Shown piece after piece: positions 1 through 4,070 of a DNA stretch of 64,000 nt. The stretch spans positions 1 through 64,000 of the forward strand of contig NZ_BOMQ01000084.1 in assembly GCF_016862275.1 (NCBI RefSeq). The letters are read 5' to 3'. The DNA comes from Actinoplanes nipponensis. Its GTDB lineage: Bacteria > Actinomycetota > Actinomycetes > Mycobacteriales > Micromonosporaceae. Position 1 is the stretch's first letter. Each line of letters begins with the position of its first letter. The notes beneath the pieces were generated by a model. The model did no database searches, was not told the DNA's origin, and saw only the letters and a list, made by a program, of their open reading frames with translations. The translations under genes and the position numbers were made by a program.

Positions 1-4
1 GGAC

Positions 5-306
5 GCCACAAGATCCGCACACGACCGACAGCACGGCTCAATCTTGTGGAGCGGTCGCGCCTCCAGCGGAGTGATCGCCACAAGATCCGCCCTCAGGGAG
101 ACAGCCCCTACCCCGATCTTGTGACGAGGCGACCCCTCAAGCAGGGCAGCCGCTCCAAGATCCAAGCTCAAGGAGACAGCACTGCCAGATCGTGTGAAAC
201 GGTGGCGCGTTGAGCGGGATGGTCGCCACAAGATCCGCACCGGCAGAAGACGAGCGACGCAACGTTGGTGAAGCGAAGACGTACAGAAGGCGCCACAAGA
301 TCCACG
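5..306. repeat. Array of alternating direct/inverted short repeats
   Basis: GCCACAAGATCC-type direct copies start at 5, 77, 153 (degenerate, GCTCCAAGATCC), 225 and 292, a period of 67-76 bp. Between them lie inverted copies ATCTTGTG at 41, 116 and 188 (degenerate, ATCGTGTG). Copies therefore alternate in orientation every 33-39 bp and could fold into successive hairpins. Units 2 and 3 also share AGGGAGACAGC-like spacer text (near 95 and 170), so this looks like a decayed tandem array of about 72-bp units. It may continue left of the window. Confidence 0.8.
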
Positions 307-567
307 AACCCAGCGAGCAACCAGCCCGCTCCCCCCGCACAGCGCGCGAGGAGCCGCAGTAGGAGAAATCGCCGAGAACCGCAGAGTGGCACCCGACGGC
401 GGCAGGCCCCCGGCCGGACCACCACAGGGCTGGCCGCATAGTCCAGGCTTGACCGCCCACGGTGAGTGACCCAACCCACCAAGCCGGACAGGACCAAGCA
501 CGCAGCCGGCAATCGGCGGGAGCGACGGTCAGTTATCTGCAACCAGGCACGACATAGCCGTGCCGAT
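307..567. other. Intergenic, no gene recognised
   Basis: Between the repeat array and the stop codon of the NO synthase gene I see no coding region with credible protein features and no clear terminator. Open frames on both strands here give arginine/serine-rich translations without domains. Confidence 0.5.
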
Positions 568-1749
568 TCACCCGGTCACCGGGCAGCGCGTCCCGTGCTG
601 GGACAACGCCTGCGCCTCCGGGTCGAGGTAGAAGTTGGGCCGCAGGTCCAACTCGTCGTAGTAGCGGTGGAAGACCGGCGTGATGCCGCCGGACATCGGC
701 GGCACGATCCAGGTCCAGTCGGCCGGCACGCGCCGGCCCGCCTTCTCCTCGTTGCGCAAATGGGTCAGGAAGCGCGCCGACTCGGTGTGGTGGTCGGTGA
801 TCTTCATGCCGGCCCGCTCGAACGAGTGGAGGACGGCCCGGTTCAGCTCGATCAGGGCGCGGTCGCGCCACAGCGTCGATTCGCGGCTGGTGTCCAGGCC
901 CATGCGGGCGGCGACGATCGGCACCATGTTGTAGCGGTCGGTGTCCGCGAGGTTGCGCGCGCCGATCTCGGTGCCCATGTACCAGCCGTTGAACGGCGCC
1001 AGCGGGTATTGCACGCCGCCGATGGTGAGCCGCATGTTCGCGATCGCGGGCACCGCGTGCCAGCGCAGGCCGAGCTCCGCGAACCAGCCGAACTCGGGGT
1101 GGGTGAGCGGCACCTCGAGGATGGCGCGTTCCGGCAGCTCGTAGAGGCGTACGCCCTCGGCCGGGGTTTCGATCACCAGCGGCAGCACGTCGAACGCCTC
1201 GCCCTTGCCCTGCCAGCCGAAGCCGCGCATGGCGGCGGTGAACTGTTCGTTGCGCGGGTCGCCGACCGAGCTGCCGTCCTCGGTGCGGTAGCCGGCGTAG
1301 CGGATCAGCTGCTCGTTCCAGACCCGCGCGTACGGCTGGCCGGGCAGCGCCGGGGCGAAGATGCTGATCACCGGCCGGATCGCGCCGGGCTTGCCGGCGC
1401 CGCCGCCGGCGGTCTGCAGGTGGTGGACCAGCAGCGAGAAGATCTCGTCAGCGGTACGGGCGCGGCGCCGGTCCAGCACCACCAGGCTGCGCCAGTAGAG
1501 CCGGCCGATGCAGCGGCCGGCGTTGCGCCAGGCCATCTTCGCGCCGTAGCCGAGCTCCTCGGTGGTGTGCACGTAGCCGCCGGTCGCCGCGATCTGGGCC
1601 CGGACGATCGCCAGCCGCGGCTCGACCGGCCCGAGCCGGGGGTTCTCGACGTAGCACTGCCGCAGGAAGTCCTCGGCCTCGCCCGGGTCGACCGGTGCGA
1701 CCGGGTCCCACCGCTCGGTCGGATGGTCCCGGTACCCAGGCACGATCAT
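568..1749 (-). CDS. nos: Nitric oxide synthase oxygenase (bacterial type)
   Basis: Oxidises L-arginine to citrulline and NO on a cysteine-ligated haem. The 393-residue protein is a stand-alone oxygenase domain without a flavin reductase domain, so electrons must come from a separate cellular reductase. The proximal haem cysteine is Cys80 in AWRNAGRCIGR; the substrate-site region FNGWYMGTEIG and a C-terminal RPNFYLDPEA stretch are also typical of the family. The ATG start is preceded by GGGGAGG about 9 bases upstream. It lies 134 bp downstream of rho on the same strand but beyond a strong terminator (1833-1866), so it is probably transcribed separately. The physiological role (stress protection or nitration chemistry) is not shown by the sequence. 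Confidence 0.95.
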   Translation of the reverse strand: MIVPGYRDHPTERWDPVAPVDPGEAEDFLRQCYVENPRLGPVEPRLAIVRAQIAATGGYVHTTEELGYGAKMAWRNAGRCIGRLYWRSLVVLDRRRARTADEIFSLLVHHLQTAGGGAGKPGAIRPVISIFAPALPGQPYARVWNEQLIRYAGYRTEDGSSVGDPRNEQFTAAMRGFGWQGKGEAFDVLPLVIETPAEGVRLYELPERAILEVPLTHPEFGWFAELGLRWHAVPAIANMRLTIGGVQYPLAPFNGWYMGTEIGARNLADTDRYNMVPIVAARMGLDTSRESTLWRDRALIELNRAVLHSFERAGMKITDHHTESARFLTHLRNEEKAGRRVPADWTWIVPPMSGGITPVFHRYYDELDLRPNFYLDPEAQALSQHGTRCPVTG

Positions 1750-1832
1750 CGGGCAGTCCTCCCCACACTTGAGCTGGCGCTACGGGAGGTTCGCACGACC
1801 CCGTCCGGGGGCAAACGCACTGCAAGTGCGAC

Positions 1833-1866
1833 AAAGGGGCAGCCACCTCGCGGTGACTGCCCCTTT
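1833..1866 (-). terminator. Intrinsic terminator after rho
   Basis: A 15-bp inverted repeat (1833-1847 with 1852-1866, one C-A mismatch) with a 4-base loop; on the minus strand it ends in CCCCTTTGT. It sits just past the rho stop codon and separates rho from nos. It could also work on the plus strand. Confidence 0.85.
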
Positions 1867-1883
1867 ATGCCGTTTTCGGGCGT

Positions 1884-4070
1884 TTATTCGCCAGGAGTGG
1901 ACTTGGCGATCTGCATCAGGAACTCGATGTTCGTCCGGGACTGCTTGAGCCGGTCGAGCAGGAGATCCAGCGCCGCCGAGGACTCCAGCGAGCTCAGCAC
2001 CTTGCGCAGCTTGTGGACGATCGCCAGCTCCTCCTTGCCGAGCAGGATCTCCTCCTTGCGGGTGCCGGACGGGTGGATGTCGATGGCCGGGAACGTACGC
2101 CGGTCCGCGATCTTCCGGTCGAGCTTGAGCTCGGCGTTGCCCGTGCCCTTGAACTCCTCGAAGATGACCGTGTCCATCATCGAGCCGGTCTCCACCAGCG
2201 CCGTCGCGAGAATGGTGAGCGAGCCACCGTTCTCGATGTTGCGCGCCGCGCCGAGGAACCGCTTCGGCGGGTACAGCGCGGTCGAGTCGATACCACCGGA
2301 CATGATGCGGCCGGAGGCCGGCGCGGCCAGGTTGTACGACCGGCCGAGCCGGGTCACCGAGTCGAGCAGCACGACGACGTCGTGACCCAGCTCGACCAGG
2401 CGCTTGGCCCGCTCGATGGCCAGCTCGGCGACCGTGGTGTGGTCCTGCGGCGGCCGGTCGAACGTGGCCGCGATGACCTCGCCCTTCACCGAGCGCTGCA
2501 TGTCGGTGACCTCTTCGGGCCGCTCGTCGACCAGCACGACCATCAGGTGGCACTCGGGGTTGTTGTGGGTGATCGCGTTGGCGATCGCCTGCAGCACCAT
2601 CGTCTTGCCGGCCTTCGGCGGCGAGACGATCAGGGCGCGCTGGCCCTTGCCGAGCGGCATGACCAGGTCGATGACCCGGGTGGTGAGGATGTGCGCCTCG
2701 GTCTCGAGACGCAGCCTCTCCTGCGGGTACAGCGGGGTCAGCTTGTAGAACTCGGGACGCCGGCGGGCCTCCTCGGGCTCCATGCCGTTGATGGTGTCCA
2801 GCCGCACCAGCGGGTTGTACTTGTCCCGCCGCTGGTCGCCGGTGCCGCTGTCGCGGGGCGCGGCCCGTACGGCGCCGGTGACGGCGTCGCCGCGGCGCAG
2901 CCCGTGCTTCTTGACCTGCGACATGGAGACGTAGACGTCGTTCGGGCCGGAGAGGTACCCCGTGGTGCGGACGAACGCGTAGTTGTCCAGCACGTCGAGG
3001 ATGCCGGCCACAGGCACCAGGACGTCGTCCTCGTTGACGTGCGGCTCGCGGCCGCTGTCCCGGCCACCCTCGCGGCCACCGTCACGACCGCCGTCGCGGC
3101 CACCACCGCCACCGCCTTCGCCGTCACGGTCGCGGCCACGGCGACGGTCGCGGAACCGGCTGCGGCGGCTGCGCCGGCCACCCTCGCCGTTCTCGCCGTC
3201 CTCGTCCTCCGGGCCGTCGTTGCGCGGACCGCGGTCGTTGCGGTCGTTGCCCCGGTCGGCGCGGTCGTTGTTGCGGTCGCCGTTCTCGGCCCGCTGCGGG
3301 TTGCGCTGACGGTCGCGGTTGCGGGGCTCGCCACGCTCCGGCCGGTCCCCCCGGTCGGTGCGCTCGGCTTCGCCCTGACCCTGGACCTCGGCCGGTTCGC
3401 GCCGGCTCTCGCCCTGGTCACGGCCGCCCTGGTCACGGCCGCCCTGGTCGCGACCGTTCTGGTCACGGCCGTTCTGGTCGCGGTTGCCGTCGCGGCCGCC
3501 GCCCTGCTCGCGGCCGGCGTCGCGGCCGCCCTGGTCGCGGGAGCTCCGATCGCCGCGGCTGCGCCGGCTCGGCTCGGCCTCGGTCGCGGGCTGCTCGGTC
3601 GCCGGGGCCGCGGACTGCGCGGCAGCGGGGGCCGGAACCGCCTCGGACACCGGAGCCGGGGCCTGAGCCGCCGGAACCTGGGCCGTGGCCCGGGCGACCG
3701 GAGCCTGGGCCACCGGGGCCTGCGCCACGGGAGCCTCGGCTGCGGGGGCCTGGGCTACGGGCAGGGTCGCGGGCTCGGCCGCCGCGGCGCCGGAGCCGTT
3801 CGTGGAACGCGGGCGCGGGGTGCCGGACGCCTTGGCCGGGGCGGCGGGCGCACCGCCGTTCTGGCGCTCCGAGATGGCGGTGATGAGCTCGCCCTTACGC
3901 ATCCGGGCGGTGCCGGAGATGCCGAGGGAGGCGGCGAGACTCTGCAACTCGGGCAGCAGCATCGCCGACAGCCCCGTGCCGCCACGGCGACGCTTGGTGA
4001 CAGCAGCGGTGGTGGCGCCGTCGTCAGCGACGTCAGAAACACCCGACGTCACGTCGGTGGTGTCGCTCAA
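1884..4070 (-). CDS. rho: Transcription termination factor Rho
   Basis: Hexameric RNA-dependent ATPase/helicase that ends transcription. Domains in order: N-terminal Rho-N helical region (LPELQSLAASLGI), a very long low-complexity insertion rich in Ala/Pro and then Arg/Asp/Gly/Asn, the RNA-binding S1-like domain (GILDVLDNYAFVRT), and the ATPase core with Walker A PPKAGKTMVL and Walker B region DVVVLLDSVTRLGRSYN. The insertion is typical of actinobacterial Rho and makes the protein long (728 residues). I chose the TTG at 4068-4070, giving SDTTDVTSG as the N-terminus, because AAGGAA lies just upstream and other actinobacterial Rho proteins begin with a similar SDTTD sequence; the frame itself stays open to 4175. 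Follows thrB on the same strand, as in the conserved thrB-rho order. Confidence 0.96.
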   Translation of the reverse strand: MSDTTDVTSGVSDVADDGATTAAVTKRRRGGTGLSAMLLPELQSLAASLGISGTARMRKGELITAISERQNGGAPAAPAKASGTPRPRSTNGSGAAAAEPATLPVAQAPAAEAPVAQAPVAQAPVARATAQVPAAQAPAPVSEAVPAPAAAQSAAPATEQPATEAEPSRRSRGDRSSRDQGGRDAGREQGGGRDGNRDQNGRDQNGRDQGGRDQGGRDQGESRREPAEVQGQGEAERTDRGDRPERGEPRNRDRQRNPQRAENGDRNNDRADRGNDRNDRGPRNDGPEDEDGENGEGGRRSRRSRFRDRRRGRDRDGEGGGGGGRDGGRDGGREGGRDSGREPHVNEDDVLVPVAGILDVLDNYAFVRTTGYLSGPNDVYVSMSQVKKHGLRRGDAVTGAVRAAPRDSGTGDQRRDKYNPLVRLDTINGMEPEEARRRPEFYKLTPLYPQERLRLETEAHILTTRVIDLVMPLGKGQRALIVSPPKAGKTMVLQAIANAITHNNPECHLMVVLVDERPEEVTDMQRSVKGEVIAATFDRPPQDHTTVAELAIERAKRLVELGHDVVVLLDSVTRLGRSYNLAAPASGRIMSGGIDSTALYPPKRFLGAARNIENGGSLTILATALVETGSMMDTVIFEEFKGTGNAELKLDRKIADRRTFPAIDIHPSGTRKEEILLGKEELAIVHKLRKVLSSLESSAALDLLLDRLKQSRTNIEFLMQIAKSTPGE

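Follow-up and report, generated by a model that had tools for sequence, protein, structure and literature searches.

Introduction

A REPIN is a pair of inverted short motifs that replicates as one unit and depends on a RAYT. REPs lie mostly between convergent or unidirectional genes, and tagged REPs are reported predominantly from proteobacteria, their GTAG type being tied to a transposase gene (PMC3733652, in the part of the text available). The same part of that account describes CGTC-tagged REPs, which are palindromic extragenic repeats with a CGTC end, stems of 8–9 bp and no dedicated transposase, and a term search of it returned no mention of actinobacteria (PMC3733652). Motif pairs at a fixed spacing have also been reported: of 57 CCTAC(N)19TAGGT pairs, 55 are intergenic and 18 lie between convergent genes, with no mechanism assigned in the available part of the source (PMC5217627).

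Here we describe a palindromic repeat found at the beginning of a 64,000-nucleotide stretch of Actinoplanes nipponensis DNA (the window). The window corresponds to contig C84, starting at its first base, and the assembly (G000) comprises 8.95 Mb in 122 contigs. The bacterial group concerned is one of antibiotic producers. The element has fixed outer tips, GATCTTG and CAAGATC, a length of 48–49 bp and a lineage-specific interior, and the array in the window is probably one local cluster, decayed in part, of a REP/BIME-like family of mobile repeats of Actinomycetes that are palindromic and non-coding. Among the records listed in a literature search, judged by titles and the openings of abstracts, we found no paper on a GATCTTG/CAAGATC element.

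The array and its unit

The initial annotation described eight copies of a 9-mer, alternating in orientation within units of about 72 bp. The copies are present: GCCACAAGATCC occurs exactly at 5, 77, 225 and 292, and all eight are recovered with CCACAAGATC as the reference (6+, 40−, 78+, 115−, 153+, 188−, 226+ and 293+), with one mismatch at 40 and 115 and two at 153 and 188. They are also commoner than in shuffled sequence: the 64-kb window has 10 matches with up to one mismatch, whereas 100 shuffles averaged 2.16 and never exceeded 5, and six of the 10 fall within its first 302 bases.

The alternating orientation is real, but its cause is the pairing of two tips within one unit. We scanned spacings in 21 sequences, the first 3 kb of the window plus 20 other stretches from this genome. 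In 47 cases a minus copy was followed by a later plus copy at 38 bases and in 15 cases at 39; no other value up to 120 occurred more than eight times, and the plus-to-minus spacing was variable. The fixed minus-to-plus spacing thus defines an inverted repeat, GATCTTG-N34/35-CAAGATC, of 48–49 bp, which replaces the 9-mer and the 72-bp unit and recurs in the window with a period of 73–75 bp. The tips lie 41–42 bp apart, which by arithmetic is about four helical turns at 10.5 bp per turn. The features are as follows.

6–15, plus strand: right half of a unit (CCACAAGATC), the left part cut by the contig start; motif match
16–39: spacer separating the cut unit from unit 1; from the sequence
40–87: unit 1, 48 bp, AATCTTG ... 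CAAGATC, one tip mismatch; fold −24.7 kcal/mol, z −4.7
88–114: spacer between units 1 and 2, with GGAGACAGC in common with the spacer at 163–187 (by eye); from the sequence
115–162: unit 2, 48 bp, GATCTTG ... CAAGATC, exact tips; fold −20.5 kcal/mol, z −3.0
163–187: spacer between units 2 and 3; from the sequence
188–235: unit 3, 48 bp, GATCGTG ... CAAGATC, one tip mismatch; fold −15.0 kcal/mol, z −1.0
293–302, plus strand: lone right half (CCACAAGATC) with no matching left tip 38 bp upstream; motif match
568–1749, minus strand: nitric oxide synthase oxygenase gene, 3′ end toward the array; Pfam PF02898, E 2.2e-148

Given these z values, which were computed against whole-sequence shuffles, the window array may form a folded RNA. 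A CRISPR array, already excluded by the initial annotation, does not fit, since interiors vary within arrays (0.69 identity) and two of the spacers share text by eye. Rfam gave nothing above the gathering score in window 1–3000, a sub-threshold mir-61 match lying outside the array; window 1–700 holds no terminator-like sites (0.5 in shuffles), and blastn of window 1–306 against plasmids and phages returned no match.

Because the window begins at base 1 of contig C84, the array is truncated on its left. Extension in that direction had been proposed, and a closely similar array does end contig C83. The tail of C83 (L018) is the best match to window 1–306 among 60 array or unit stretches (77% over 204 columns, E 2.5e-37), and by blastn the last bases of C83 are 89% identical to the window array over 66 bp. 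From this likeness the two contigs probably meet within the window array, a putative adjacency by which the array would exceed 1 kb and would sit in a convergent pair, between an RNA-ligase gene reading rightward (L018:3255–3887) and the nitric oxide synthase gene reading leftward. L018:2359–3887, which would form the far flank of the array, contains a polynucleotide kinase-phosphatase gene and then the RNA ligase gene. Numerous contigs of this assembly end in or next to unit arrays, C6/C7, C20/C21 and C83/C84 among them (likeness judged by blastn for C83/C84 and by eye for the other two pairs), and at least 15 contig ends lie no more than 700 bases from the motif or a unit.

Recurrence and sequence similarity

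A genome-wide search, which had been suggested as a check, confirmed that the motif recurs: CCACAAGATC has 51+38 exact matches and its reversed control none. The genome carries 97 exact units and no match to the reversed pattern; with spacers of 20–50 allowed, there are 103 pairs. When all inverted 7-mers at the unit spacing were counted in 277 kb, GATCTTG accounted for 63 of 208 pairs and the runner-up for four, a ratio that is not a genome average, the sample having been picked mostly for unit loci.

Copy number is patchy among relatives. Among 60 genomes of the genus, 21 contain exact units (0 to 133 per genome). In the family Micromonosporaceae they turn up in 100 of 200 genomes sampled, spread over 27 of 44 genera with a maximum of 113, low counts per genome including chance matches. 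A phylum sample gave matches in 13 of 296 genomes, 11 of the 13 outside the family with one unit each, and a class sample gave 16 of 296, 13 of them outside the family. In the latter 13 the counts were 33 (G591), 9 (G539), 3 (G723), 2 (G617), and 1 or 2 in the other nine; judged by recurrence or palindromy, the units of G591, G539 and G723 look real, and so do those of G617, which resemble the units of G591, a member of the same family. The interiors of twenty fetched units of other families are 0.36 identical to those of the window's family, against 0.31–0.32 for shuffled sequence. Carriage by viruses was considered and rejected: 13 viral contigs match the GATCTTGG/CCAAGATC form, but each match is the sole unit of its stretch and pairs at 9–17 of 24 positions, and we take them as chance.

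Interior identity (92 units) falls from 0.69 within an array to 0.51 between arrays of one genome and 0.335 between genomes, where the null is 0.31. In 19 of 22 arrays the interiors are more alike than flanks of equal length. Copies found by their interiors showed a mismatch rate of 0.117 in the tips, 0.198 in the interiors and 0.356 in the flanks, values biased by seeds that had exact tips. Near-identical units also occur far apart: in G316, with 133 units, five of 12 compared are within four mismatches of one another across 1.73 Mb, and two are identical. One array variant, at L014:4770–5779, has unequal tips, the left mostly GATGTTG and the right mostly CAAGATC.

Position relative to genes and folding

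Units are extragenic and favour the 3′ ends of genes. With one tip mismatch allowed, 155 of 156 fall outside the genes called by a codon-usage gene finder of our own making. A coding repeat was therefore rejected; one ORF of the window runs through the array, but 49-bp units shift the reading frame. The 52 gaps with exact units comprise 30 convergent, 20 tandem and two divergent ones, and the 373 gaps without units in the same stretches comprise 50, 202 and 121; convergent gaps are enriched (Fisher, p 1.3e-11) and divergent gaps depleted (p 2.4e-6). Where exact units lie past the final predicted gene of a stretch (19 units), all of them face the 3′ end of a gene. In 764 kb not picked for units, where 65 of 456 gaps are convergent, three of four units lie in convergent gaps and one in a tandem gap. 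No gene family is prominent beside the arrays, the largest cluster having seven members among 328 predicted proteins.

This location invites an explanation in which the units are bidirectional transcription terminators or 3′-end RNA hairpins of convergent genes. In its favour, four near-perfect dispersed units of related genomes have stems of 22 bp closed by a 4-base loop, with folding energies of −40 to −45 kcal/mol. Six genomes (G204, G319, G302, G316, G396 and G398), grouped after their sequences had been seen, have a mean half-to-half pairing of 18–20 of 24 positions; at positions 8–21, pairing is 668 of 854 against 0.70 expected, a level reached by none of 5000 within-genome half shuffles (61 distinct units of about 294, being those listed minus three of G302). 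Group fold z values, for which tips were kept and interiors shuffled, lie between −3.7 and −6.1 in these six genomes, at −3.4 in G314, −2.3 in G485 and −2.3 for other-family units, and mean folding is better than that of shuffled interiors in 11 of 11 groups, weakly so in A. nipponensis. Two of the three window units have z values of −3 or below. A set of 44 units, from loci retrieved chiefly for their dispersed units and with other families included, has 23 in convergent gaps, and seven of these 23 are within 100 bp of both stop codons.

Against it, 15 units of this set lie in tandem gaps and three in divergent ones (three more are at stretch ends), and none of the 44 has five or more T in eight bases within 12 bases on either strand. 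In A. nipponensis, strict-register pairing is only 12.5 of 24 (39 distinct exact 48-mers), similar to the 13 viral chance matches, and for this genome, G314 and G485 together it falls below shuffles (4998 of 5000 reach it), by a measure that overlooks bulged stems. The mean fold z there is −1.25 for 48-mers, with 12 of 39 below −2, and −0.45 for 49-mers, with two of 24 below −2. Constraint chiefly by a conserved RNA structure is thus disfavoured in A. nipponensis, with strict-register pairing at chance and bulged folding leaving a weak excess. Termination, moreover, needs neither fixed tips nor fixed length, and we regard a terminator or 3′-end hairpin function as unlikely. The hairpin ranges from strong in some genomes to greatly reduced in A. 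nipponensis, where tips and length persist. Of the three options that the initial annotation had offered, a decayed hairpin repeat family accounts best for near-perfect 22-bp stems in relatives and a weak tendency in this genome. The terminus-type array it also offered is not suggested by the one pattern mapped on the complete genome of G485, where listed units run from 0.19 to 5.34 of 9.29 Mb, with none between 1.85 and 3.08 Mb among the matches listed.

Orthologous gaps with and without units

At 80 synthase loci from other genomes, scanned for up to 6 kb, no unit was found; the relatives reach 85% identity at best and more distant actinobacteria also matched. We take 26 of these loci (L102–L127) to be Micromonosporaceae, the nearer relatives named in the scan being Actinoplanes/Paractinoplanes and other genera of the family. 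We searched 60 genomes for the ppa/eccD pair and read 30 loci, measuring gaps from protein alignments. The gap spans about 22–320 bp without a unit at 26 loci, and two further loci are cut short with no unit visible. In A. nipponensis (L087) it is 1679 bp with six units and in G310 it is 624 bp with one, compared with 64 bp in G320, whose ppa and eccD are 98% and 90% identical to those of A. nipponensis. By eye, A. nipponensis keeps a separate GC-rich hairpin adjoining ppa, upstream of the island, which again counts against the units as terminators. This island (L087:3770–5245) also contains minisatellites with periods of 9, 16, 23/47 and 28 bp.

Solitary units can be compared in the same way. 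One in G382 lies where transketolase and LtrA genes are 81 bp apart; the counterpart gap in G324, whose proteins are 91–95% identical, is about 9 bp and wholly without a unit, a further point against a terminator. The extra stretch in G382 is about 79 bp, so the boundary of the insertion differs from that of the unit. Comparison of the sister genomes G314 and G316, 80–96% identical in seven blocks of at least 700 bases, gave no exact insertion boundary, the sole G316 unit in 400 kb lying outside the shared stretch. A protein query at L074 hit a paralogous family and was of no use for comparing loci. These comparisons point to gain of units at orthologous gaps, and loss in the relatives could also have produced the pattern.

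Two gaps carry units in two species, ppa/eccD (G000 and G310) and the L015/L078 block, which could reflect site preference, shared ancestry or positional function. In the L015/L078 block the arrays lie in the corresponding gap and the gene on one side is flipped, as if a rearrangement breakpoint fell at the array; the printed sequence of L015:4101–4400, upstream of the array, holds a GGTGGTTCTTGGGC-type minisatellite.

Such shared positions, together with location behind convergent genes and tips and spacing that stay constant, in other families too, while the interior varies, would suit sites for a DNA-organising protein, for example a dimer bridging the two GATCTTG half sites, kept for chromosome structure such as the supercoils between convergent genes. 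A core function of this kind is poorly matched by a copy number of 0 to 133 among congeners and by orthologous gaps that are usually without units, and no binding protein was found; we give this explanation a small chance of being right. Least probable is ordinary minisatellite growth in tolerant gaps, the palindromic unit having no mobility or function of its own, which draws on the other minisatellites of the ppa/eccD island and on spacers common to arrays but leaves unexplained the solitary units, the interiors that resemble each other more than flanks do, and the identical tips and length at unlinked loci and in other families, where interiors are barely above shuffled identity.

Search for an enzyme

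The Y1 profile PF01797, a domain found in RAYT and IS200 transposases, has no match in A. nipponensis, nor in G485, G351, G347, G336 or G302. It is present in four of 10 genomes with units and three of 10 without; we reject a RAYT as a requirement. Neither the PF01797 genome profile nor the gene families beside arrays yielded a mobilising enzyme or binding protein. A Mutator-family transposase gene (PF00872; L080:5802–7106) adjoins an array in G485. Direct repeats in the flanks show no clear excess indicative of the target-site duplication that would mark a MITE for 62, 17 and 13 units of three genomes, array units not being independent insertions. In three genomes, one to three partly conserved bases lie outside the tips, differing between genomes, and none spells GTAG or CGTC.

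Discussion

The reading we prefer, a partly decayed cluster of a mobile palindromic family, has several observations as its grounds: a defined unit recurs outside genes, at their 3′ ends; its copy number is patchy; orthologous gaps contain it in particular lineages; and far-apart loci of one genome carry nearly identical copies. An enzyme that is not of the Y1/RAYT type would copy single palindromes into the gaps that follow genes. Some units would afterwards be amplified along with adjacent DNA, giving islands of about 1 kb, within which the hairpin would decay while tips and spacing persist. Since the islands also hold unrelated minisatellites, repeat growth of a general kind may have carried the unit along there as a passenger. 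The constant distance of about four helical turns between the tips suggests a putative protein able to read the pair simultaneously.

More tentatively, and with the odds somewhat against it, the family could be a class-wide, RAYT-free counterpart of REPs and REPINs, made up of mobile palindromes of nearly exact length, whose putative enzyme would read two GATCTTG half sites about four turns apart and copy the unit behind convergent genes. The CTTG within the tip may resemble motifs that some HUH enzymes (IS91 type, rolling-circle Rep) nick or target. A large family with other tips, near-fixed length and no Y1 match in its own genome would suggest that more than one enzyme lies behind the REP-like way of life, and the GATCTTG/CAAGATC motif offers a defined handle for finding the putative enzyme.

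The earlier statement that this is not a simple REP holds in detail, for tips, length and the missing Y1 match, and fails for location and clustering, which are REP/BIME-like. Like REPs and BIMEs, the units are extragenic and have many copies (155 of 156 outside genes, 97 exact), and 50 of the 52 gaps with units are convergent or unidirectional. REPs and BIMEs measure 20–40 bp with a stem of 5–13 bp, whereas the units measure 48–49 bp and have a 22-bp stem in the four near-perfect examples; the former carry an unpaired GTAG or CGTC end tag, the latter paired GATCTTG/CAAGATC tips. We do not file the units as members of that class because they differ in size and stem, in tag, and in lacking a Y1 enzyme in A. 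nipponensis. GTAG REPs and BIMEs with their RAYT (TnpA_REP) resemble the units in palindromy, in clustering and in combining a constant end motif with a lineage-specific stem, but PF01797 is absent from A. nipponensis and from five of the nine other unit-bearing genomes searched. REPINs differ in that the units are near-fixed in length, have other tips and show no RAYT requirement. As far as the available part of the source describes them, CGTC REPs share palindromic, extragenic character with the units and differ in their CGTC end and shorter stems (PMC3733652). The CCTAC(N)19TAGGT pairs, in the part of their description available, are likewise motif pairs at a fixed spacing, of another sequence, spacing and organism (PMC5217627).
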